From: Stackebrandtia nassauensis DSM 44728
GTDB lineage: Bacteria; Actinomycetota; Actinomycetes; Mycobacteriales; Micromonosporaceae
Direction: 5' to 3'
Assembly (NCBI RefSeq): GCF_000024545.1
Contig: NC_013947.1
Location: forward strand, 3,286,001-3,350,000
DNA: 64,000 bases
Part shown: in pieces, positions 9,491 through 21,885 of the stretch
Layout of the letters: each line of letters opens with the position of its first letter
How positions within the stretch are numbered: position 1 is the stretch's first letter
Notes under the pieces: generated by a model
The model's database searches: none
The model's input: the letters and a program-made list of their open reading frames with translations, nothing else
Told to the model about the DNA's origin: nothing
Made by a program: the position numbers and the translations under genes

Positions 9491-9539
9491 TTGACACGGA
9501 TGGATCTTCGTCGGTACTGTCCCGAGAAATCGATTACTC
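9491..9539 (+). promoter_or_regulatory. Promoter and LacI-type operator of the GH172 transporter operon
   Basis: TTGACA at 9491-9496 and TACTGT at 9515-9520, separated by 18 bp, make a good vegetative promoter. Directly downstream, AGAAATCGATTACT (9525-9538) covers the expected transcription start. Its core AATCGATT is self-complementary with a central CG, as in LacI-family operators. The identical 14-mer lies in the same position after the isomerase promoter at 16722-16735, next to a LacI gene. A repressor bound here would block initiation. Binding by that regulator is inferred. Confidence 0.75.
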
Positions 9540-9554
9540 AACCGCGAGGTGCTT

Positions 9555-10892
9555 ATGTCTCCTGGGTTTGGGGAGTCCCGGCTCTCCCGTCGCGGACTGC
9601 TGCGGGCCTCGGCGCTGGGCCTGGGTGCCCTGGGCGCGGGCTCGCTGACGGCCTGCGCGGGCTCGAACCCCGATGAGCTGGTGTTCTGGCATTTCGTCGG
9701 GCCCAGCAGCCCGCAGGGCAAGTGGCAGACCACGATGGTCGACGACTGGAACAAGCACAACAAGGTCCGCATCACCGAACGGTTCGTCCCGTTCGGCGAC
9801 TACGCCAGCGGCCCGACCCTGCAGACCTCGTTCAGCGCCGACTCCGGCCCGGACATCTTCCTGCTCAGCCCCGGCGACTTCCTGCGCTACCACAACGCGG
9901 GCGTCCTGATGGACCTCACGCCGTACCTGCCCCAGTCGGTGCGCGACGACTACCTTCCCGGCACTTTGGACAGCCGCAGCTTCGACGGCAAGGTGTACGG
10001 TCTGCCCATCGAAAGCGAACCGTTGGCGCTGTTCTACAGCCACGACGCCTTCGAGAAGGCCGGACTGTCCGAAGCCGACGTTCCCGCCAACTGGGACCAG
10101 ATGCTGGACGTGGCCGACAAACTCACCACCGACCGCCGCTTCGGGCTGCTGTTCGAGACCAACCCCGGCTACTACCAGAACTTCACCTGGTACCCGTTCC
10201 TGTGGCAGGGCGGCGGATCGCCGGTGTCCAAGGACCAGAAGAGCGGCCGCTTCGACTCCAAGGCCACCGTGGACGCGCTCGCGCTGTGGCAGGACAGCAT
10301 CAACCGCCGGGTCGCTCCCACCCTGCCGCAGGGCTCGGGCGGCATGGACACCATCAGCAACCTCGGCAACGGCTACTGCGCCATGCAGCAGACCGGCGTG
10401 TGGGGAGTCGGCGAGCTCGGCATCCAGTTGCCGGACTTCAAGTTCGGGGTGGCGCCGCTGCCGAAACCGCCGGGCGGCAAGGACATCACCACCGCGGGCG
10501 GCTGGGCCCTGGTCGCCAACGTGCGCGGCCGCAACCCCGAGGCCGCCGCCGAGTTCATCGCCTGGGCGCTGGGCAGCGACGAGGACGACTGCGTCGAACG
10601 GGGACGCCAGCTCAACACCGTCATCAAGAAGAACCTGCCGGTGCGCCGCAGCGTCCGCGACCTCGCCGAGAAGTCCGGCGACATCGACACCGACAACTAC
10701 CGGAAGTTCGTGGAGGAGATCGCCCCGATCGCGGTCGGCGAACCCCGCTACCCGGTGGAGATCTACCGGAGCATCTCGGACGCCATCCAGGCCTGCCAGC
10801 TGGACGGCGCCGACCCGGCCACCGTCGCGGCGGACACGGACGAGCAGATCCAGACGTTCGTGTCCACATACGAAGGAGCGTCGATCCTGTGA
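9555..10892 (+). CDS. Sugar ABC transporter substrate-binding lipoprotein (Tat-type signal)
   Basis: A 445-residue extracellular solute-binding protein of the family serving CUT1 oligosaccharide transporters. The N-terminus carries a twin-arginine motif (SRLSRRGLLRAS) and a lipobox (GSLTAC, Cys about residue 37), so it is probably exported folded and lipid-anchored. The mature part, starting ELVFWHFVGP, is typical of MalE/UgpB-like proteins. ATG at 9555 is chosen over the in-frame GTG at 9549 because the GAGG box (9546-9549) then has correct spacing. The gene leads an operon with two permeases and a GH172 hydrolase and follows a LacI-type operator. The ligand is probably an oligosaccharide cleaved by the GH172 enzyme. 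Confidence 0.93.
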   Translation: MSPGFGESRLSRRGLLRASALGLGALGAGSLTACAGSNPDELVFWHFVGPSSPQGKWQTTMVDDWNKHNKVRITERFVPFGDYASGPTLQTSFSADSGPDIFLLSPGDFLRYHNAGVLMDLTPYLPQSVRDDYLPGTLDSRSFDGKVYGLPIESEPLALFYSHDAFEKAGLSEADVPANWDQMLDVADKLTTDRRFGLLFETNPGYYQNFTWYPFLWQGGGSPVSKDQKSGRFDSKATVDALALWQDSINRRVAPTLPQGSGGMDTISNLGNGYCAMQQTGVWGVGELGIQLPDFKFGVAPLPKPPGGKDITTAGGWALVANVRGRNPEAAAEFIAWALGSDEDDCVERGRQLNTVIKKNLPVRRSVRDLAEKSGDIDTDNYRKFVEEIAPIAVGEPRYPVEIYRSISDAIQACQLDGADPATVAADTDEQIQTFVSTYEGASIL

Positions 10893-11806
10893 CCACCAGC
10901 AATCTCACCCGCATCGTGCCCCGGCGCCGCCCCGGCGAGGCCCGCGCCGGATACGGCTTCATCGCCCTGGACGGCCTGGGACTGATCGTCTTCGTCGCCG
11001 GGCCCGCTCTGCTGGCCCTCGTCATCGGACTGTTCGACGTGGACGGATTCGGCAAGATCGAGTTCGCCGGATTCGACAACTTCGCGCTGATGGCGGGGGA
11101 CAAGCTGCTGTGGAAGTGCGTCGGCATCACCGCGATCTTCACGGCGATTTTCGTGCCCACCGCCTTCGTGGTGAGCCTGTGCCTGGCCCTGGTGGTCAAG
11201 AACCCCTATCCCGGCGTCGGTCTGGTGCGCGCGGCGCTGTTCCTGCCGCAGGTGATCAGCCTGGTCGTCATCGGCGTCATGTGGAAGTTCCTGCTCACCG
11301 ACAAGACCGGGGTGGTGTCGGGGATCCTCAGCCCGCTGGGCCTCGGCGACACCTCGTGGCTGGGTGACCCGTGGCTGGCGCTGCCGACGGTGGCCTTCAT
11401 CAGCGTGTGGTTCCTGATGGGCTACCAGATGCTGATCTTCCTGGCCGGACTGCAGGACATCCCGAACGAACTCTACGATGCCGCCACAGTGGACGGCGCC
11501 AACGCGTGGCAGCGGTTCTGGAACGTCACCTGGCCGTGTCTGCGCCCCACCAGCTTCTTCGTGCTCGTCACCTCGATGGTCAACGCGATCGCCGGGACGC
11601 TGGCCTTCGACATCATCTACGTGCTCACCAAGGGCGGCCCGGCCAACTCCACGTCCACGGTCATCTTCTACGCCTACCAGCAGGCGTTCACGTACGGCAG
11701 GTTCGGCTACGCGGCGGCGATCTGCGGATTCGTCGTGGCCGTGCTGATCCTGCTCACCGGCGCGATGTTCGCCGCCACCCGCGGAGGTCGATTCAATGAC
11801 GCGTGA
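10889..11806 (+). CDS. CUT1 sugar ABC transporter permease (MalF-like)
   Basis: A 305-residue membrane protein with six predicted helices. GTG at 10889 overlaps the binding-protein stop (GTGA), and GAAGGAG lies about 10 bases upstream. The cytoplasmic EAA loop that contacts the ATPase is ELYDAATVDGANAWQRFWNV followed by TWP, and the C-terminal region LTKGGPANST is typical of MalF-type subunits. It should pair with the next gene as a heterodimeric channel. No CUT1 ATPase gene is present in this locus, so the pair probably uses a shared MsiK-like ATPase encoded elsewhere, as is common in actinomycetes. Confidence 0.93.
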   Translation: MTTSNLTRIVPRRRPGEARAGYGFIALDGLGLIVFVAGPALLALVIGLFDVDGFGKIEFAGFDNFALMAGDKLLWKCVGITAIFTAIFVPTAFVVSLCLALVVKNPYPGVGLVRAALFLPQVISLVVIGVMWKFLLTDKTGVVSGILSPLGLGDTSWLGDPWLALPTVAFISVWFLMGYQMLIFLAGLQDIPNELYDAATVDGANAWQRFWNVTWPCLRPTSFFVLVTSMVNAIAGTLAFDIIYVLTKGGPANSTSTVIFYAYQQAFTYGRFGYAAAICGFVVAVLILLTGAMFAATRGGRFNDA

Positions 11807-12620
11807 CCGTGCCCAACCCCGGGCCCCGATCACCTGGCTGTCCATCGTGGGCTACCTGCTGGCGCTCGTGACCGCGCTGCCCATCCTGTGGATGGTGCTG
11901 GCCGCCTTCCGCCCCAAGGGCGACGTGTTCGCGCTGACCTGGCCGACAAACCTGACCACCGAGAACTTCACCTACGTGCTGACCGAGGTCCCGTTCCCGG
12001 TCTACCTCGGCAACAGCGCCCTGGTGTCCATCGTGGTCACCGTGATCGCGCTGTTCCTGCACACCATGGCCGGATACGCGCTGGCCCGGTTGCGGTTCCC
12101 CGGCCGGGGCCTGGCCTTCGGTCTGGTGATCGCGACGCTGTTGATCTCGCTGCCGGTGATCCTGGTGCCGCTGTTCATGGTGACCGAGGTACTGGGCATG
12201 GTGAACACCTACGCGGGCCTGATCGTGCCCAGCATCTTCAACGCCTTCGGCGTGTTCCTGTTGCGGCAGTTCTACCTCAGCCTTCCCACCGACCTGGAGG
12301 ACGCCGGTCGCCTGGACGGCTGCGGCCACCTGCGGCTGTACTGGCACATCGTGCTGCCGTTGAGCCGCCCCATCATGGCGTCGCTGGCGGTGCTGTTCTT
12401 CCTGGCGAACTGGAACTCCTTCGTGTGGCCGCTGACCGTGGCCCAGGACGAGAACCTGCGCGTCGTGCAGGTCGGGATCAACTCGCTGCAAGGACAATAT
12501 GGACAGGACTACCAGTACGTGCTGGCCGGGTCGGTCCTGGCCGCGATCCCGACGGTGATCGTGTTCCTCATCGGACAACGCAGGATCGTCGACTCACTGA
12601 AGACAACCGGATTGAAATAG
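11796..12620 (+). CDS. CUT1 sugar ABC transporter permease (MalG-like)
   Basis: A 274-residue protein with six predicted membrane helices that overlaps the previous permease by 11 bp, indicating translational coupling. The EAA loop reads LEDAGRLDGCGHLRLYWHIV followed by LPLSRP. The N-terminal pattern LPILWMVLAAFRPKGDV and the C-terminal IGQRRIVDSLKTTGLK are characteristic of MalG-type subunits. It forms the second half of the channel with the 10889-11806 product. Ten bases after its stop the GH172 gene begins, so the four genes read as one transcript. Confidence 0.93.
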   Translation: MTRDRAQPRAPITWLSIVGYLLALVTALPILWMVLAAFRPKGDVFALTWPTNLTTENFTYVLTEVPFPVYLGNSALVSIVVTVIALFLHTMAGYALARLRFPGRGLAFGLVIATLLISLPVILVPLFMVTEVLGMVNTYAGLIVPSIFNAFGVFLLRQFYLSLPTDLEDAGRLDGCGHLRLYWHIVLPLSRPIMASLAVLFFLANWNSFVWPLTVAQDENLRVVQVGINSLQGQYGQDYQYVLAGSVLAAIPTVIVFLIGQRRIVDSLKTTGLK

Positions 12621-12630
12621 GAGGAACCTC

Positions 12631-13716
12631 GTGCGGGAATCGGCATACGGACAGTTCGGCTCGAGCCTGCGGGACCTGCCCAGGCTGCGCAACTCACGAC
12701 GGGGCCGGGCGTCGAGCTGGGACACCACCGGCGGCAACGACGACCGGGTCACCGTGGAGCCGGGCGAGACGGTGACGCTGGCCGACCTGCGCGGCCCCGG
12801 GGCGATCACCCACATCTGGTGCACCACGATGCTGGAGACTCCGGACGGACCCTGGGCGGTCGAGACCGACTTCCTGCGGCGCCTGGTCCTCAAGATCACC
12901 TGGGACGACGCCGACCACCCCAGCGTCCTGGTGCCGCTGGGGGACTTCTTCGGCGTCGGACACGGCCGCACCGCGAACTTCTCCTCGGCGCCACTGCAGA
13001 TGAGTCCACAGGACGGCAAGGGCTTCAACAGCTGGTTCGCCATGCCCTACGCGCAGGGTGCCAAAGTCGAGCTCATCAGCGAACTGGAGCAACAGAAGGT
13101 CTTCTTCTACTACTACGTCGACTACGAGTCGTACGCCCGCGCTGAGGACGACCTGGGCTACTTCCACGCCCAGTGGCACCGCGAGAACCCCACCGACGGA
13201 CAGCCGCGCGGCGAGTCCACCGTGCCGCAGCACCTGTTCGAGGGCCCCAACCTGACCGGCGAGGGCAACTACGTGATCCTGGACGCGACCGGCCGCGGCC
13301 ACTACGTCGGCTGTGTGTTCAACGTGCACAACCTGTCCGACAGCACCGACTGGGACTGGTACGGCGAGGGCGACGACATGATCTTCATCGACGGCGAACC
13401 CTGGCCGCCGAGGCTGCACGGCACCGGAACCGAGGACTACTTCAACACCTCCTGGTGCCCGACCCAGACCTACCACGCCCCGTACCACGGCATCACGCTG
13501 CCGGGCCGCGACAACTGGAAGGGCCAGATCTCGATGTACCGGTTCCACATCGAGGATCCGGTGCTGTTCAACGAGTCCATCAAGGTCACCATCGAGCACG
13601 GCCACGCCAACAAACGCTGTGACGACATCTCCTCGGTGGCGTACTGGTACCAGACGCTGCCGCACCGGCCGTTCGACCTGGCACCCGTCGCGCAACGGCT
13701 GCCGCGCTCGGAGTGA
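12631..13716 (+). CDS. GH172 (DUF2961) family glycoside hydrolase, cytoplasmic
   Basis: A 361-residue protein of the DUF2961 family, now glycoside hydrolase family 172. Characterised members act on furanosides: alpha-D-fructofuranosidase/difructose-anhydride enzymes and exo-alpha-D-arabinofuranosidases. Diagnostic stretches are GPGAITHIWCTT (residues about 54-65), DFFGVGHGR, and GTGTEDYFNTSWCP (about 264-277, with the conserved GTEDY acid at about 268). GGAGGAACCTC precedes the GTG start. There is no signal peptide, so the substrate is presumably imported by the co-transcribed transporter and cleaved inside. Neighbouring isomerase and kinase genes under the same operator suggest that the released sugar is an aldose such as D-arabinose. 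Fructose release is the main alternative. Confidence 0.85.
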   Translation: MRESAYGQFGSSLRDLPRLRNSRRGRASSWDTTGGNDDRVTVEPGETVTLADLRGPGAITHIWCTTMLETPDGPWAVETDFLRRLVLKITWDDADHPSVLVPLGDFFGVGHGRTANFSSAPLQMSPQDGKGFNSWFAMPYAQGAKVELISELEQQKVFFYYYVDYESYARAEDDLGYFHAQWHRENPTDGQPRGESTVPQHLFEGPNLTGEGNYVILDATGRGHYVGCVFNVHNLSDSTDWDWYGEGDDMIFIDGEPWPPRLHGTGTEDYFNTSWCPTQTYHAPYHGITLPGRDNWKGQISMYRFHIEDPVLFNESIKVTIEHGHANKRCDDISSVAYWYQTLPHRPFDLAPVAQRLPRSE

Positions 13717-13737
13717 CGGACACCCGAAGCGGCTGAG

Positions 13738-13757
13738 GGCGGGCCGCCGAGCCCGCC
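13738..13757. terminator. Hairpin terminator between the convergent GH172 and kinase genes
   Basis: GGCGGGC (13738-13744), a 6-base loop and GCCCGCC (13751-13757) form a strong inverted repeat in the 42-bp gap between the two converging operons. There is no long T-run, but in GC-rich actinobacteria such hairpins commonly end transcripts. It could serve both directions. Confidence 0.6.
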
Positions 13758-13758
13758 T

Positions 13759-15255
13759 TCAGTCCGCCAGCTTCTGCTGGTGCGCCAGGAAATGCGCGAC
13801 GTCGCTCGTGGCCGGGTAGAGCTCGCGATAGTGCCGGTAGAACGCGTCGTACGCCTCCGCCCGCGCCGGATCCGGCCGTACGGTCGCGGTCACGGGGTTC
13901 CACGCCGCCAGGTCGACGTCGAGGCCGAGCCCGTGCGCGGCCAGCATCGCGTCGCCCAGGCAGGCGCCGATGGTGTGCGACGGGATGTCCTGTGCCTGAT
14001 TGGTCACATCGGACACGATCTGCGTCCACAGTCCACCCTTGGTGCCGCCGCCGACGGCCACCAGCCGCTCGATCGAACCGTGCGCCGAGGCCATGGTCTC
14101 CAGGTTGTGCCGCACCCCGTGGGCGATCCCCTCCAGCGCCGCCCGGTACAGCTCCGCCGGTCCATGCGCCAGCGTCAGCCCCGCGATCACGCCCCGGGCC
14201 TCCGGATCGAAGATCGGGGTACGTTCGCCCGCGAAGTACGGCAACAGCAGCAGTCCCCGGCTCCCGGCCGGGACCGTGGCCGCCGCCGCGGTCAGCTCGG
14301 CGAAGTCGCCGCCGACCAGCCGCCGCAGCCAGTCGGTGACCGACCCGGAGGTGGCCATGCCCGCCGCCAGTGAGAACGTGCCCGGCATCGCGCCGCTGGT
14401 GGTCCACAGTCCCCGATGCGGTCGCGGATCGGCGGCCACGTTGACGATGAACATGGTGGTGCCGTACATGACCATGGTCTCGCCGGGCTCGCGCACCCCG
14501 ACGCTGACCGACTCGGCCCACGCGTCCACCGTGCCCGCCATGACCGGCAGATCCCGGGGCAGCCCGGTCGCGGCGGCGGCCGTGGCCGACACCGCACCCA
14601 CCACCTCGCCGGGCCAGGCCAGCCGTGGCAGCGCCAGCCCCGGCGCCACCTTCTCGGCCCAGTCACGCGCCCAGCCGAAGGACCGCTGATCGTAGAGCGG
14701 GTCGCACTGGCTGGCCGAATGATGGTCCAGCACGTACTCGCCGGTGAGCCGGTGCACCAGATAGGAACTGGCCATCAACAGCTTCTCGGTGCGCCGCCAC
14801 ACATCCGGCTCGTGCTTGGCCAGCCAGCGGATCTTGGGGCCGACGGCCTGACTGGACAGGGGAGTACCGCCCCGCTCCATGATGGCCTCGGCCCCGAACT
14901 CGGCGTCGAGCTCGTCGATCTCGGCGCTGGCACGGGTGTCGACCCCGTACAGGATCGCCGGACGCAACGGACGGCCGTCGCCGTCGGCGGGCAGCAGCAC
15001 CGGACCGATACCGCTGGTGGCCAGCCCCGCGATGTCGCGGCCGTCGACGTGTTCCAGCAACCGGCCGACCAGGTACCGGAAGTCGTCCCACCACACCGTC
15101 TCGGCGTCGTGCTCGAACCAACCCGGGTGCGGGGTGGCGGTCTCGTGGGCGCGTTCGGCGCGGGCCAGGATCGACCCGCGCCGGTCCACCGCGACCGCCT
15201 TGGAACTGGACGTGCCGATGTCGACGCCCAGCAGTATCGCGTTGTCGCCGGTCAC
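13759..15255 (-). CDS. FGGY-family carbohydrate kinase
   Basis: A 498-residue sugar kinase. ATP-dependent phosphorylation is indicated by the N-terminal LGVDIGTSSSKAVAVD, and the FGGY C-terminal lobe by the glycine-rich RLVAVGGGTKGGLWTQIV (about residues 395-412). AGTVDAWAESVSVG in the middle is another family element. The GTG at 15255 has GAGGGA about 7 bases upstream. It lies 2 bp after the isomerase stop, so the two are translationally coupled. FGGY kinases phosphorylate ketoses and polyols. Given the fucose/arabinose-isomerase-like partner and the absence of an aldolase, a ketopentose such as D-ribulose is a reasonable substrate; gluconate, xylulose and fuculose cannot be excluded by sequence. 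Confidence 0.88.
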   Translation of the reverse strand: MTGDNAILLGVDIGTSSSKAVAVDRRGSILARAERAHETATPHPGWFEHDAETVWWDDFRYLVGRLLEHVDGRDIAGLATSGIGPVLLPADGDGRPLRPAILYGVDTRASAEIDELDAEFGAEAIMERGGTPLSSQAVGPKIRWLAKHEPDVWRRTEKLLMASSYLVHRLTGEYVLDHHSASQCDPLYDQRSFGWARDWAEKVAPGLALPRLAWPGEVVGAVSATAAAATGLPRDLPVMAGTVDAWAESVSVGVREPGETMVMYGTTMFIVNVAADPRPHRGLWTTSGAMPGTFSLAAGMATSGSVTDWLRRLVGGDFAELTAAAATVPAGSRGLLLLPYFAGERTPIFDPEARGVIAGLTLAHGPAELYRAALEGIAHGVRHNLETMASAHGSIERLVAVGGGTKGGLWTQIVSDVTNQAQDIPSHTIGACLGDAMLAAHGLGLDVDLAAWNPVTATVRPDPARAEAYDAFYRHYRELYPATSDVAHFLAHQQKLAD

Positions 15256-15257
15256 GG

Positions 15258-16670
15258 TCAGTCCCTCGTGAACTCGTCGAGACTGATGCCCATCAGCTCG
15301 CACACCGTCCGCAGCTCGGCGCGCCGGTCACCGGGCACGGCGTGGATGTGGTTGGCGCCGAACCGGGACAGGAAGGTCGCGGCGGGCGCGTGGATGCGTG
15401 CCCACGCGTGCGGCCACTCCGGTGTGGAGCGTCGCATCATCTCGGTGTTGACCTCGTCGTCGAATTCCTGGAACTCACCGTGCATCAGCTGCATCCGGTA
15501 CTTTCCGTCCAGTCTGGTCAACCGCGCCAGCGTCATCTCGCCGGGGGCGGCGATGTGGTGCACCGAGGCGCCGCCGGCGGGGAAGAAGAACACCTCGGGG
15601 TACAGGTGCACCCGGGCCAGGTTGACGGCCGGATCGTCGCTGCGGGCGGCGTACCAGGTCGCGTGCTGCCCGGAGTTGCACAGGTCCCACACGTCCCGGT
15701 CGGCGTGGTAGTGCCGCACGTCGGCGAACAGCACCGGCGTGCCGGTGATCCCCTTCAGCAGCTGCATCGTCAGCGCGCCGTCCATGTCGGCCTCGGTGGC
15801 GCACACGTGCGGCGCCTTGGGGCCGTTCCAGTCGTAGGGGTCGTTGAGGAACGCCTCGGCGATGTCCATGGTGGCGAAGTACTGGGTCAGTTCCGGCTGC
15901 CCCTTGATACCGGTGAAGTCGAGGTTCCACTCCTCGATCAGCTCCCGCATCGCCATATAGGAGCCGATCTGCCGCTCCAGCAGCTCGGGCGTGAGCTTCT
16001 TGCCGTCATAGTGGACGTTGGCGTTGGTCTCCAGCCATTCCCGGGCGTGCTTCTTCTCGGACGCGTCGGCCAGCTCCGCGCGGCGCACGATCTCGTACTG
16101 GTCGATCTCCTCCACGTCGATGCCGAACTCGCGCTGCCACTGGTCGGTGTTGGCCACGGCGGTGTACATGCCCATCGGACGACCGCCGATCCGGCCGAAG
16201 GTGGAACCGCGCAGGCTCGACACCGCCGCCGCGGCGCTGGCCCGCACCCCGATCGCGTCGATGAGTTCGGTGTCGTCCGCGTCGCCCCACAGCCGGGTGT
16301 GCTCGCGGCCGATCTGGTCCAGCGCGCCACCGGCGGCCAGCATGCCCACCATGCCCGGCTGCGCCGGGTCGATGGTGGACAACAGCAGCAGCGGACCGGG
16401 GGAGGCGTCGGCGGCCAGCATCGTGAAATGCGGGAACGCCCACACCGCGTAGTGCAGCACGGTCAGGTCGACGCCCCGGGCCGCCACCCGGCGCGCCACC
16501 GCGGTGGCCACGGTGTTGGACGTGACCTGCTCCTCGCCCCGGATCACCTCGTGCCCGGCGGCTTCCAGGCTCGCGACCAGGCGATCCTCGTAACCGGCGA
16601 TGAAGTCGCCGATGTCCTTTTGCACGTACTCACGGCCGTCCGAAATGCTGATCACGCCAATGCGCGCCAC
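15258..16670 (-). CDS. L-fucose/D-arabinose isomerase-family protein
   Basis: A 470-residue enzyme of the L-fucose isomerase superfamily, which interconverts aldoses and ketoses using Mn2+. The metal ligands can be matched: Glu293 in CATEADMDGALTMQLL, Asp317 in PVLFADVRHY, and the C-terminal His443 in FGANHIHAVPG. The protein is shorter than the roughly 590-residue E. coli FucI, as in many actinobacterial homologues. The start is GTG with AGGAGG 5-6 bases upstream. It is the first gene of a two-gene operon with the kinase, behind a promoter carrying the same 14-bp operator as the transporter operon. FucI enzymes also act on D-arabinose. L-arabinose isomerase activity is less likely from the motifs. 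Confidence 0.85.
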   Translation of the reverse strand: MARIGVISISDGREYVQKDIGDFIAGYEDRLVASLEAAGHEVIRGEEQVTSNTVATAVARRVAARGVDLTVLHYAVWAFPHFTMLAADASPGPLLLLSTIDPAQPGMVGMLAAGGALDQIGREHTRLWGDADDTELIDAIGVRASAAAAVSSLRGSTFGRIGGRPMGMYTAVANTDQWQREFGIDVEEIDQYEIVRRAELADASEKKHAREWLETNANVHYDGKKLTPELLERQIGSYMAMRELIEEWNLDFTGIKGQPELTQYFATMDIAEAFLNDPYDWNGPKAPHVCATEADMDGALTMQLLKGITGTPVLFADVRHYHADRDVWDLCNSGQHATWYAARSDDPAVNLARVHLYPEVFFFPAGGASVHHIAAPGEMTLARLTRLDGKYRMQLMHGEFQEFDDEVNTEMMRRSTPEWPHAWARIHAPAATFLSRFGANHIHAVPGDRRAELRTVCELMGISLDEFTRD

Positions 16671-16721
16671 GTGTCCTCCTGTGCCGGGGGCCGGTGCCCG
16701 AGGCGATCCGGCCGAGCGTCC

Positions 16722-16769
16722 AGAAATCGATTACTCCGCACGTTATGCTCTTGCCCGACGCACTGTCAA
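16722..16769 (-). promoter_or_regulatory. Promoter and LacI-type operator of the isomerase-kinase operon
   Basis: Read on the minus strand, TTGACA (16769-16764), an 18-bp spacer and TAACGT (16745-16740) form a promoter. Four bases downstream AGTAATCGATTTCT covers 16735-16722. On the plus strand this is AGAAATCGATTACT, identical to 9525-9538, where it also follows a TTGACA promoter with an 18-bp spacer. The neighbouring LacI gene starts 70 bp away and is the obvious candidate regulator of both sites. Confidence 0.75.
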
Positions 16770-16805
16770 TAGGGCGGGCGATTCGCAGACGGAGGTTTGT
16801 GAACG

Positions 16806-17801
16806 GTGGCGACGATCGCCGAAGTGGCGGCATTGGCCGGATTGTCAACGGCGACGGTGTCGCGCGCCCTCAACGGCGTGCCGACCGTCGACCCCGAGCT
16901 GGCGCTGCGGGTGTGGCGCGCGGCCGAAGAACTCGATTACCAGCCCCACGGACCGGCCCGCAGCCTGCGCCGACAGCGCACCGCCGTGCTGGCGCTCATC
17001 ATCTCCGACGTGGAGAACCCGTTCTTCACCGCGATCGCCCGCGGCGTCGAGGACATCGCCCGCGCCGAGGGCTACTCGGTGGTGCTGTGCAACTCCGATG
17101 AGGACGTCGAGAAGGAACGCCGCTACCTGGACGTCGCGGCGACCGAACGCATGGCCGGAGTCATCATCTCGCCGACCGCCGAGACCAGCCGCTCCGGCGT
17201 AGTCGGCGCCGCGGACACCCCGTTCGTCGCGGTGGACCGGCCGCTGCCGTCGGGCAACGGCGACTGCGTCCTGGTCGACACTCGCGACGCCGCCCGGCAG
17301 GCCACCGTCCACCTGGCCGAGCGCGGCTACGACCGGATCGCCTGCCTGACCGGCCCGACCGGACTGGCCACCGCCGACGACCGGCTGGCCGGATACCGCG
17401 ACGGGCTGCGCGAGACCGGCAGGCAGGCCGACGAGGCGCTGGTGCGGCACTCGCCCTACCGCGCCGACGGGGCGCACGAGGCGGCGCTGCAACTGCTCGA
17501 CGAACTGCGCCCGCCGGACGCGTTGCTGGTCGCCAACAGCACCATGGCCATCGGCGTGCTGGAGGCGTTGCGGGAACGCGACCTGCGGCCCGGCCGCGAC
17601 GTCGGCGTCGTCGCCTTCGACGACGCGCCGTGGGCGACCCTTGTGGATCCGCCGCTGTCGGTGGTCACGCAACCGGCCTACGAGCTGGGCACCAGCGCCG
17701 CGACACTGTTGCTGTCCCGCATCGCCGACCGGTCGCGACCGTCCAGCACCACGATCCTGGGAGCCCGGCTGGTTGCGCGGGACACCTCCCGCCGCGACTG
17801 A
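16806..17801 (+). CDS. LacI-family repressor of the GH172/isomerase regulon
   Basis: A 331-residue regulator. The N-terminal helix-turn-helix reads ATIAEVAALAGLSTATVSRA with the hinge-helix segment GPARSLRRQRT, and a periplasmic-binding-like sugar domain follows (ISDVENPFFTAIARGVED onward). It opens with GTG at 16806, after GGAGG at 16791-16795; the spacing is slightly long. It is divergent from the isomerase-kinase operon and faces the shared AATCGATT operator. Its inducer is likely a sugar from this pathway. Which sugar cannot be read from sequence. Confidence 0.9.
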   Translation: MATIAEVAALAGLSTATVSRALNGVPTVDPELALRVWRAAEELDYQPHGPARSLRRQRTAVLALIISDVENPFFTAIARGVEDIARAEGYSVVLCNSDEDVEKERRYLDVAATERMAGVIISPTAETSRSGVVGAADTPFVAVDRPLPSGNGDCVLVDTRDAARQATVHLAERGYDRIACLTGPTGLATADDRLAGYRDGLRETGRQADEALVRHSPYRADGAHEAALQLLDELRPPDALLVANSTMAIGVLEALRERDLRPGRDVGVVAFDDAPWATLVDPPLSVVTQPAYELGTSAATLLLSRIADRSRPSSTTILGARLVARDTSRRD

Positions 17802-17855: not shown

Positions 17856-18679
<824 letters not shown>

Positions 18680-18683
<4 letters not shown>

Positions 18684-19687
18684 CGGTTCCTCCTGCGGTA
18701 GAGCTGGTCGAAGGTCACCGCGAGGATCACGAGGATGCCGGTGACGAGGATCTGGTAGATCGGCAGCACGCCCATCATCTGCAGGCCACTGCGCACCACG
18801 CCGACGATCAGGACGCCCAGCAGCGTGCCCAGGACGGCACCGCGGCCGCCGAACAGGCTGGTGCCGCCCAGCACCACCGCGGTGATGGACTCCAGGTTCT
18901 CGGTCTGGCCGACCTTGGGGTCGCCGACGCCGGTGCGGGCGACCATCAGCAGCGCGGCCACGCCGAACACCAGCCCGGCCACCAGGTACACCGACTGCAG
19001 GTGGCGGCGCACCGGCACGCCGGTCAACCGGGTGCCCTCGAAGTTGTTGCCGGTGGCGTACAGGCGGCGTCCCCAGGCGGTGTTGGCGAGCACGACGGCG
19101 AAGGCGGCGAACAGGACCAGCATCAGCAGCGAGCCGTAGCTGACCCGGGCGTCGCCGACGGGGAAGGTCTCGCCCAGTGCGGTCAGCGTGGCCGGGACGC
19201 CGGTGATGGTGGCCTCGTTGGAGTAGATGTGGGTCAGCGCGTAGGCGACGTTGAGCATGCCGAGCGTGACGATGAACGGCGGCAGTTTGATCTTGGTGAC
19301 GAGCATGCCGTTGGCCAGCCCGAACAGCCCGCACACCGCGATCCCGGCCAGGATCGCCAGGACCGGCGGCAGCCCGGAGTCGACGGCCAGTTTGGTCATG
19401 ACGATGCTGCCGAAGGCCATCACGGCGCCCACCGACAGGTCGATGCCGGCCGACAGGATGATCAGCGTCTGTCCCAGCGCGAGCGTCCCGATGACGGTGA
19501 CCTGTTGCAGGACCAGCGCGGCGGTGTTGAGGCTGAGGAAGTTGTCGGCCATGGTGGAGAAGAACGCGATGGCGATGAGCAGCGCGCACAGTGGACCGGT
19601 GGTGGAGCCGCCGAGGAACCGGCGCGTCCAGGTCTGTTCGGTGAGGACGGGGGCCGCCGGTGGGGCGGTGGTCGATGTCGTGGTCAT
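18680..19687 (-). CDS. Sugar ABC transporter permease (RbsC/FrcC-like, CUT2)
   Basis: A 335-residue protein of about nine to ten membrane helices from the BPD_transp_2 (CUT2) family, distinct from the CUT1 permeases at 10889-12620. Signature stretches are ILSAGIDLSVGAVMAFGSIV (about residues 77-96) and VVLGGTSLFGGRGAVLGTLLG near the end. One such polypeptide forms the homodimeric channel. A 4-bp overlap links it to the ATPase gene, and the binding-protein gene lies 39 bp upstream, giving the usual B-C-A order of fructose and ribose importers. Confidence 0.92.
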
Positions 19688-19726
19688 GTGGCTTTATCCC
19701 TTGGGTTCAGTGGAGGTACACAGTGC

Positions 19727-20734
19727 TCAGCCGCCCCAGCACTGCTTGGCGCCCCAGTCGGTGTCCTTGCTGTCGAGTCCTTCGACGGGGTCGTCGGTGA
19801 TGAGTTCGACGCCGGTGTCGGTGTATCCGGAGGGGCGGTCTCCGGTGCGGGCGTATTCCAGGGCGGCGTCCATGCCGAGTTCGGCCATCTTCACGGGGAA
19901 CTGCATGGCGGTGGTGTCGAACTTGCCCTGCGCGGTGGCCTCGACTCCTGGGCAGCCGCCGTCGATGGCCACCAGGGTGGTCTTGTCGGTGCGTCCGGCG
20001 GCCTTGAGCGCGGTGTGGGCGCCCAGCCCGGCGGGTTCGTTGATCGTGTAGACGAGGTTGATGTCCGGATGGGCCTGCAGGCAGTTCTCCATCGCGGTGG
20101 TGGCCTTGGTCTGGTCGCCCTGGGTGTACTCCTCGCACACCAGCTGCTCGTCGCCCTCCTTGATGCCGAAGCCCTTCAGGAAACCGTCGTGGCGCAGCTG
20201 CCCGACGGTGACGCCGGGCGCGAGGTCCATGGTGGCGATCTTGGCGGGCTTGCCGTCCAGTTTGGCCTTGGCGTACTCGCCGACCACCTCACCGGCCCGG
20301 AAGTTGTCGGTGCCGTACAGCCCGTCGGTGGCGTCGGCGGGCTCGGTGGGCGTGTCCAGCGAGATGACGGCGATGCCGAGCTTCTGGGCTCGTTTGACGG
20401 ACGGGACGATCGCCTTGGTGTCGCTGGGGGTGATCAGTATGGCCTTCACCCCGGCGGCGATCATGTTCTCCATGGCGGACACCTGGCCCTCGTTGTCGCC
20501 GTCGAATTCGCCGGTGGCGGTGAGCAGCTGCGCCCCGGCTTCTTCGGCGGCGATCAGGGCCGTGTCCTTCATTTCGATGAAGATCGGATTGGTCTCGGTC
20601 TTGGTGATCAGACCGATCTTGATGCGGTCGTCGGAGCCGGAGCCGCACCCGCTCGTGACCAGCCCGGCGAGGCTGATCACGATCAGGACGGTGATCGTCC
20701 GGGTCAGGCGGCTCCAGCCACGCGTTTTCGGCAT
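19727..20734 (-). CDS. Sugar-binding lipoprotein of the CUT2 transporter (FrcB-like)
   Basis: A 335-residue lipoprotein with signal peptide and lipobox (GLVTSGC, Cys about residue 30). The mature domain is a type I periplasmic-binding fold (KIGLITKTETNPIFIEMKDT) as in ribose and fructose binding proteins. The C-terminus, with VELITDDPVEGLDS and WGAKQCWGG, recalls fructose-binding FrcB proteins; this is from memory and only suggestive. GAGAGG lies upstream of the ATG. It is the first gene of the B-C-A operon and is divergent from a LacI regulator across a palindromic operator. Confidence 0.88.
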   Translation of the reverse strand: MPKTRGWSRLTRTITVLIVISLAGLVTSGCGSGSDDRIKIGLITKTETNPIFIEMKDTALIAAEEAGAQLLTATGEFDGDNEGQVSAMENMIAAGVKAILITPSDTKAIVPSVKRAQKLGIAVISLDTPTEPADATDGLYGTDNFRAGEVVGEYAKAKLDGKPAKIATMDLAPGVTVGQLRHDGFLKGFGIKEGDEQLVCEEYTQGDQTKATTAMENCLQAHPDINLVYTINEPAGLGAHTALKAAGRTDKTTLVAIDGGCPGVEATAQGKFDTTAMQFPVKMAELGMDAALEYARTGDRPSGYTDTGVELITDDPVEGLDSKDTDWGAKQCWGG

Positions 20735-20799
20735 GGGAACCTCTCCAGTGGAGTGTTGGGTGCCGGTGTTTCGGGGTTCGGGAGATCTCTCGAAACGTG

Positions 20800-20835
20800 A
20801 TGCTATACACAGACAAGCGGTTGCGCAACCGCTTG
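20800..20835. promoter_or_regulatory. Perfect 22-bp palindromic operator with overlapping promoter of the CUT2 operon
   Basis: Positions 20814-20835 are a perfect palindrome with arms CAAGCGGTTGC and GCAACCGCTTG, the classic LacI-family shape with a central GC. On the minus strand TTGCGC inside the palindrome and TAGCAT (20805-20800), with 17 bp between them, form a plausible promoter for the transporter. A bound repressor would cover the -35 box. It lies between the binding-protein gene and the LacI gene, so it likely controls both. Confidence 0.8.
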
Positions 20836-20880
20836 CGTCAGTATTCGCGCGAGAACGTTCGCGATCGAGAAGGAGGCCGC

Positions 20881-21885
20881 ATGGTCACCATGGCCGACGT
20901 CGCACGTCAAGCCGGCGTATCAGTGTCCACGGTGTCCCACATCGTGAATGGGACCCGCTATGTCAAGGAGGACACCAAGAAGCGCGTGCTGGCGGCGATC
21001 CGCGAAACCGGTTACACCCCCAACTCGCTGGCCCGTTCGCTGGCGACCCAGAACACCCACACCATCGGCTTGGCCATCTCGGCGATGTCCAACTTCTACT
21101 TCGCCGACATCGTCGCGGCCATGGAGTCGGCGGCCCGCGCCGCCGGGTTCACGCTGCTGTTGGCCGACACGCACGACGACCCCGACGAGGAACTCCAGGT
21201 GATCCAGGCGCTGCACCAGCGCCGGGTGGACGGCATCCTGTACGCGCCCTCCACCGGCTCGGCCGGTCCGGCGCTGCGCTACCTGGCCGAACTCAGCGTC
21301 CCCACCGTCCTGGTCGACCGCTGCGCCTGGAGCCGCTTCGACCAGATCGGCACCGAGAACGTCCGCGCCACCGCCCACCTGACCGTCCACCTCGCCGAAC
21401 GCGGCCACGCACGCATCGGCCTGCTGGCGGGGCACCAGGACGTGCGGACCTTCGCCGAACGCACCGAGGGCTACCGCGCCGGACTGGCCGAAGCCGGGAT
21501 CACCCCCGACGACGCCCTGACCGTCTTCGGCCCGCCCGGTGAGGAGTTCGCGGCCCGCGCGGTGTCCCAACTGCTCGCCCTGCCCGACCCGCCCACCGCC
21601 CTGATCTCGGGCAACAACCACCTCACCATCGAGATCATCCGGGCGCTGCGCGCCCGCGGCATCAAGGTCCCCGACGACATGGCGCTGGCCTGCTTCGACG
21701 ACTTCGAGTGGGCCGATCTGTTCGCACCCCGGCTGACCGCCATGGCCCAGCCGATCGAGGCGATCGGCGCGGGCGCGGTCGGCCTGCTGCTGGACCGGCT
21801 GGCCGAACCCAAACGCCCGGTGCGCACCATCCGGCTCGACCCGGTCTTCGCCCACCGCGAATCCTGCGGCTGCCCGCCGGAATGA
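20881..21885 (+). CDS. LacI-family regulator of the CUT2 sugar transporter
   Basis: A 334-residue protein. The DNA-binding domain reads VTMADVARQAGVSVSTVSHI, with hinge helix YTPNSLARSLATQ, followed by a sugar-binding domain. The ATG at 20881 has AAGGAGG four bases upstream. The upstream open frame (from 20797) lacks this and would begin inside the operator region. It ends in RESCGCPPE, with a Cys-rich tail common to many LacI proteins. Divergent arrangement with the fructose/ribose-type transporter and the 22-bp palindrome points to local repression relieved by the imported sugar. Confidence 0.9.
   Translation: MVTMADVARQAGVSVSTVSHIVNGTRYVKEDTKKRVLAAIRETGYTPNSLARSLATQNTHTIGLAISAMSNFYFADIVAAMESAARAAGFTLLLADTHDDPDEELQVIQALHQRRVDGILYAPSTGSAGPALRYLAELSVPTVLVDRCAWSRFDQIGTENVRATAHLTVHLAERGHARIGLLAGHQDVRTFAERTEGYRAGLAEAGITPDDALTVFGPPGEEFAARAVSQLLALPDPPTALISGNNHLTIEIIRALRARGIKVPDDMALACFDDFEWADLFAPRLTAMAQPIEAIGAGAVGLLLDRLAEPKRPVRTIRLDPVFAHRESCGCPPE

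Follow-up and report, generated by a model that had tools for sequence, protein, structure and literature searches.

A dispersed, operator-linked regulon predicted to scavenge D-arabinan in Stackebrandtia nassauensis

The window analysed here comprises 64,000 nucleotides (positions 3,286,001–3,350,000) of the genome of the soil actinomycete Stackebrandtia nassauensis, which consists of one contig of 6,841,557 bp. Seven genes at positions 9491–17801 of the window very probably form the core of a LacI-repressed regulon for the scavenging of D-arabinan, the polymer in the cell walls of mycobacteria and related bacteria. All seven genes were assigned using Pfam, and encode a substrate-binding protein, two permeases, a glycoside hydrolase of family GH172, an FGGY kinase, an isomerase, and a LacI-family protein. 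The regulon is larger than this locus, to which the original prediction had confined it: the operator of the locus also precedes two secreted-protein genes elsewhere in the genome. The general D-arabinan pathway was already published in 2023, and the locus is a rewired version of it. The dispersed but operator-linked regulon, the short branch of its isomerase, and an alternative arabinose-5-phosphate route in related clusters are new.

The importer and GH172 genes form a plus-strand transcription unit (9555–13716), and the isomerase and kinase genes form a minus-strand unit (16670–13759), from which the gene of the LacI-family repressor diverges (16806–17801, plus strand). The importer is of the CUT1 oligosaccharide type and consists of a substrate-binding lipoprotein (9555–10892; Pfam SBP_bac_1, 2.1e-39), a MalF/UgpA-type permease (10889–11806), and a MalG/UgpE-type permease (11796–12620), all encoded on the plus strand. 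Both permeases match Pfam BPD_transp_1, and they match UgpA-like and UgpE-like NCBIfam models, respectively. The lipoprotein gene starts with an ATG at 9555 preceded by a Shine-Dalgarno sequence, with a GTG at 9549 as an alternative start, and its product has a visible lipobox, LTAC. Lipoprotein orthologs with 45–65% identity adjoin GH172 genes in many genomes. The importer operon contains no ATP-binding cassette (ABC) ATPase gene, and at least eight UgpC/MsiK-type ATPases are encoded elsewhere in the genome. The GH172 gene (12631–13716, plus strand) encodes a predicted cytoplasmic exo-alpha-D-arabinofuranosidase with no visible signal peptide. In the minus-strand unit, two bases separate the stop codon of the isomerase gene (15258–16670) from the start of the kinase gene (about 13759–15255). 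The importer lacking an ATPase gene, the signal-less GH172, and the LacI protein with shared operator sites are thus as the original prediction had described them.

The identical 15-mer AGAAATCGATTACTC is located ahead of both operons, at 9525–9539 and 16722–16736. The operator GAAATCGATTAC inside it occupies positions 9526–9537 before the importer operon and 16723–16734 in the divergent intergenic region of the isomerase and lacI genes, between the -10 region and the start of the isomerase gene. The palindromic core GWAATCGATTWC occurs at eight sites in the genome, compared to 0.13 expected from a dinucleotide model, and the reversed control pattern has no sites genome-wide. The operator is an even palindrome with a central CG pair, as is typical of LacI-family sites (PMC4052901). 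In other genomes, LacI relatives with 45–69% identity adjoin an operator that is identical or very similar. A promoter-like element TTGACA – 16 bp – TACTGT can be read from the sequence before the importer operon (9492–9519, plus strand).

Outside the locus, the operator precedes two genes of secreted proteins, at a distance of about 20 bp for a GH172 at 3.44 Mb and about 40 bp for a GH183-like protein at 6.07 Mb, in both cases downstream of a TTGAC/TAnnnT promoter. A TTGAC element 33–35 bp ahead of the operator is also present in the promoters of the isomerase and secreted-GH172 genes and in four other genomes, and the corresponding distance at the GH183-like gene is about 43 bp. The secreted GH172 is a multidomain protein of about 930 residues, in which Pfam identifies DUF2961. 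The GH183-like protein has 558 residues (L100:9678–11351), and its match to DUF4185/GH183 is weak, at 33.9 bits and below the cut-off. It contains two invariant aspartates, D72 and D90, which are 18 residues apart, the same spacing as that of D33 and D51 in EndoMA1 (PMC10509167). A profile search of the PDB with this protein returned weak Asp-box/BNR stretches and nothing else, and its AlphaFold model was discarded because of a predicted local distance difference test (pLDDT) value of 46. The GH183-like protein is a candidate for a new D-arabinan hydrolase family distantly related to DUF4185/GH183. The remaining four operator sites are located before the genes of a 251-residue secreted protein, a 106-residue secreted protein, and a WXG100-like protein, and within a gene. 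Where examined, they lack the TTGAC/TAnnnT promoter pattern, and they may belong to another regulator or be due to chance. The sites before the three genes (L095:9018, L097:639, and L099:8571) are perfect GTAATCGATTAC palindromes.

The dispersed genes are reunited in other genomes. In genomes G016 and G051, which belong to the same family as Stackebrandtia, homologs of the secreted GH172 (49% identity over 794 residues) and of the GH183-like protein (56–57%, or 65–67% by another scoring) share one locus with LacI (about 52%), the operators, the importer (53–62%), and GH172 (73%). Since the dispersed genes had been chosen by the operator alone, this synteny is a separate test of their connection. 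Among 81 genomes, the GH183-like protein is present in four and GH172 in six, with both in three (hypergeometric probability 0.0009). In Pseudactinotalea and in genomes G080 and G039, orthologous GH172 genes (67–70% identity) cluster with LacI, the operator, GH183, and the importer, and the clusters of P. terrae, G080, and G039 also contain GH116. Published D-arabinan hydrolases comprise GH183, GH172, and GH116 enzymes together (PMC10509167).

The slot after the operator is occupied by different metabolic modules. In the sister clusters of G016, G051, G080, G039, and both Pseudactinotalea species, it holds a KpsF/GutQ-type SIS protein and a ribokinase-like PfkB protein, and no isomerase/FGGY kinase pair was seen in these clusters. 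The SIS protein scores 206.9 bits as an arabinose-5-phosphate isomerase, against a cut-off of 203.7. Pairs of a KpsF-type isomerase without CBS domains and a ribokinase-like PfkB are located at L005:8250–9964, L144:3905–5460, and L146:7190–8808 in actinobacterial D-arabinan clusters. In Paenibacillus, the slot contains a full-length, true FucI (1064 bits) and a ribulokinase (754 bits), with GH172 and GH183 alongside. The modules of Paenibacillus and Cohnella have an AraB-type ribulokinase next to GH172, GH183, the importer, and LacI, and the operator precedes the LacI gene by about 60 bp. GH172 is again accompanied by the short isomerase and FGGY kinase in Pseudonocardiales and another actinobacterial family (f18). 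All three modules fit D-arabinose as the sugar, which could reach ribulose-5-phosphate via either arabinose-5-phosphate or D-ribulose. The KpsF-type isomerase and PfkB kinase are likely to represent a second catabolic route for D-arabinose.

The GH172 enzyme of the locus reaches a score of 302.5 bits with DUF2961, for which the cut-off is 27 (Pfam, 2.6e-90), and aligns to solved GH172 structures over most of its length. According to a residue survey and PDB alignments, the acid/base Glu246, the nucleophile Glu268, Asp269, and Trp275 correspond to E270, E291, D292, and W298 of alphaFFase1 from Bifidobacterium dentium, and Trp243 is also conserved. The residue immediately after the active-site tryptophan, which is the position of the fructose gate, is Cys276. 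The same position is occupied by Gly299 in fructose-active alphaFFase1 (PMC8605356), by Asn253 in the arabinose-specific ExoMA1 of Microbacterium arabinogalactanolyticum (PMC10509167), and by a cysteine in DgGH172c, an active alpha-D-arabinofuranosidase (PMC10115798). These assignments were taken from pairwise alignments; MAFFT placed Gly299 of alphaFFase1 opposite a proline owing to a one-residue gap. Cys276 is bulkier than the glycine that admits fructose and should block the fructose 1-hydroxymethyl group, but alone it does not prove specificity for arabinose.

The original prediction of a FucI-type isomerase and an FGGY kinase is supported at the level of fold and domains, but neither name fixes a substrate, since both proteins score below the equivalog cut-offs. 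The isomerase contains the Pfam fucose-isomerase domains, and its best profile match is the D-arabinose isomerase of B. pallidus (PDB: 3a9r; 3.7e-127). Its predicted structure (pLDDT of 87) superposes on FucI and D-arabinose isomerase (PDB: 1fui and 3a9r) with template modelling (TM) scores of 0.88–0.90, and it retains the three metal ligands of FucI, with Glu293, Asp317, and His441 corresponding to E337, D361, and H528. However, it has 470 residues compared to about 590 in that family, with which it shares 22–24% identity, and it represents a short divergent branch that reaches 110 bits against the FucI equivalog cut-off of 775. The published numbering of the FucI substrate contacts (PMC6894278) is partly at odds with the Escherichia coli sequence, and therefore only the metal ligands and Gln300 were used in the comparison. 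The kinase contains the FGGY_N and FGGY_C domains, is XylB-like with 307 bits compared to 126 bits for fuculokinase, and falls below every FGGY equivalog cut-off. The kinase is predicted from the genomic context to be a D-ribulokinase, and the isomerase is predicted to be a D-arabinose isomerase.

In the proposed mechanism, foreign D-arabinan would be cut outside the cell by the multidomain GH172 and the GH183-like protein, which are encoded elsewhere under the same operator. The genome also encodes two strong homologs of GH183 endo-D-arabinanases, which perhaps join the extracellular cutting. The D-arabino-oligosaccharides would enter through the CUT1 importer, which we infer to be powered by a shared housekeeping ATPase, and the cytoplasmic GH172 would remove alpha-D-arabinofuranose units from them. 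The FucI-fold isomerase would turn D-arabinose into D-ribulose, which the FGGY kinase would phosphorylate to D-ribulose-5-phosphate for entry into the pentose phosphate pathway. LacI may leave the operators upon sensing D-arabinose or its derivative. The pathway had been described as possibly complete, which holds for the intracellular steps, whereas the secreted hydrolases lie elsewhere in the genome and GH116 is missing.

The locus resembles the D-arabinan polysaccharide utilization locus of M. arabinogalactanolyticum (PMC10509167), which has an importer, a cytoplasmic GH172, and a putative isomerase and kinase leading to ribulose-5-phosphate, and acts on foreign arabinogalactan or lipoarabinomannan, as predicted here for Stackebrandtia. 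The locus of Stackebrandtia contains the GH172, the importer, and the pentose-to-ribulose-5-phosphate module of actinobacterial D-arabinan loci. In M. arabinogalactanolyticum, however, one cluster holds the genes for GH183, GH172, GH116, the transporter, and metabolism, whereas those for the secreted proteins of Stackebrandtia are dispersed and linked by the LacI operator, and GH116 is absent. The locus PUL42 of Dysgonomonas gadei (PMC10115798) is of the Bacteroidota type and its isomerase is annotated as a fucose isomerase, unlike the short divergent isomerase of Stackebrandtia.

That the sugar is D-arabinose, as originally proposed in preference to fructose and L-fucose, is highly probable. 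The GH172 enzyme might instead act on alpha-D-fructofuranosides such as difructose anhydride or inulobiose, with the importer and the cytoplasmic hydrolase feeding fructose metabolism. The layout of importer and signal-less GH172 is the same as in B. dentium BBDE_2040–2043, and alphaFFase1, encoded there, is the closest characterised enzyme, with the same catalytic residues (PMC8605356). Nevertheless, this is very unlikely: Cys276 replaces Gly299, a FucI-type isomerase would be needless for fructose, and the sister clusters carry GH183/GH116 and the KpsF/GutQ-type arabinose-5-phosphate isomerase. Furthermore, alphaFFase1 has a GH32 partner and no described isomerase/kinase pair (PMC8605356), whereas there is no GH32 among the seven genes. 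Similarly improbable is the catabolism of L-fucose or an L-fucofuranoside by the FucI-type isomerase and a fuculokinase-type FGGY enzyme. Known FucI enzymes use L-fucose as well as D-arabinose (PMC6894278), but no fuculose-1-phosphate aldolase was found among the genes examined, the kinase favours the XylB model over that of fuculokinase, and the arabinose-5-phosphate isomerase of the sister clusters would not serve L-fucose. Moreover, we know of no fucofuranosidase in GH172.

Two further explanations accept D-arabinose and differ in its source. The recycling of the organism's own wall arabinan has the lowest probability of all, even though published accounts disagree on arabinose in the S. 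nassauensis wall (PMC3035245). The genome contains no match to EmbA/B/C-type arabinosyltransferases, for which the control search was positive in Corynebacterium glutamicum. The arabinan would therefore be foreign, and its scavenging, as the original prediction suggested, is the more likely of the two. This GH172 is missing from three congeners, which fits an accessory trait, perhaps acquired horizontally. A source in D-arabinofuranose glycans of another kind, for example pilin glycans of Pseudomonas or certain O-antigens, instead of mycobacterial-type arabinan is unlikely but deserves more weight. GH172 enzymes cut D-arabinofuranose oligosaccharides of pilins (PMC10115798), and GH116, which is needed for beta-capped arabinan ends, is not in the genome. 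However, the two GH183 endo-D-arabinanase homologs, together with GH183 and GH116 in the sister clusters, point to arabinan of the arabinogalactan/lipoarabinomannan type.

Several observations weigh against a D-arabinan regulon. The GH172 enzyme is 35–44% identical to characterised enzymes, from 35% for ExoMA1 to 44% for the fructose-active alphaFFase1. Nearly all sampled relatives have Cys276, and the residue therefore speaks more strongly against fructose than in favour of arabinose. In the family tree that had been proposed as a check, calculated with four solved enzymes, the enzyme falls into its own actinobacterial clade (support 100/99), and its deep branching to characterised enzymes is not resolved. 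The secreted GH172 of Stackebrandtia, ExoMA1, and alphaFFase1 form long branches, and therefore the tree was left out of the substrate evidence. The isomerase is divergent and has Lys256 in place of the FucI substrate contact Gln300. Neither of the two strong GH183 genes has an operator upstream, even with two mismatches allowed. Of the other operator sites, three lie before genes that show no obvious connection, and one lies inside a gene. Finally, the genome has no match to PF04685, representing GH116 exo-beta-D-arabinofuranosidases, so mycobacterial arabinan may keep its beta-capped ends.

The exchange of modules within one regulon and a KpsF-type isomerase in D-arabinan catabolism appear undescribed in the searchable literature, which excludes most subscription journals; no paper in the searchable open-access literature mentions "D-arabinan" together with "arabinose 5-phosphate isomerase". 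On balance, we lean slightly towards the joint proposal that the isomerase–FGGY kinase route and the route of a ribokinase-like kinase and a CBS-less KpsF protein are interchangeable within one LacI/operator regulon, with KpsF serving catabolism, not 3-deoxy-D-manno-octulosonate or capsule, and that the 6.07-Mb protein represents a new, divergent GH183-related family of D-arabinan hydrolases. What began as a guess about one operon becomes a testable genome-wide D-arabinan regulon in a bacterium without a detectable arabinosyltransferase. The operator motif is a marker of D-arabinan loci in Paenibacillus and in several families of actinobacteria. Candidate enzymes for the analysis of glycans from mycobacterial walls are a further gain, as is the prediction of a second way for D-arabinose to enter metabolism, via arabinose-5-phosphate.

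Downstream of lacI, the window contains a CUT2 importer of the rbs type, which has a single-domain ATPase and adjoins its own LacI (17856–21885; LacI at 20797–21885). The transporter (17.9–20.7 kb) has this separate LacI and a palindrome, ACAAGCGGTTGCGCAACCGCTTGCGT, that differs from the operator, and was therefore left out of the regulon. In loci L138, L139, L142, L143, and L148, the isomerase is flanked by CUT2 genes with distant similarity, and the rbs-like importer might therefore carry free pentose. Importer–GH172 loci with about 50% identity are widespread in Rhizobiales and other Alphaproteobacteria (L026–L074); in many of them, the gene that follows GH172 encodes an ABC ATPase and LacI lies upstream, and most have no isomerase/kinase pair nearby. 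Two contigs of Candidatus Jordarchaeia (Asgard) metagenome-assembled genomes (L013 and L016) encode GH172 proteins that are 57–58% identical to the enzyme of the window.

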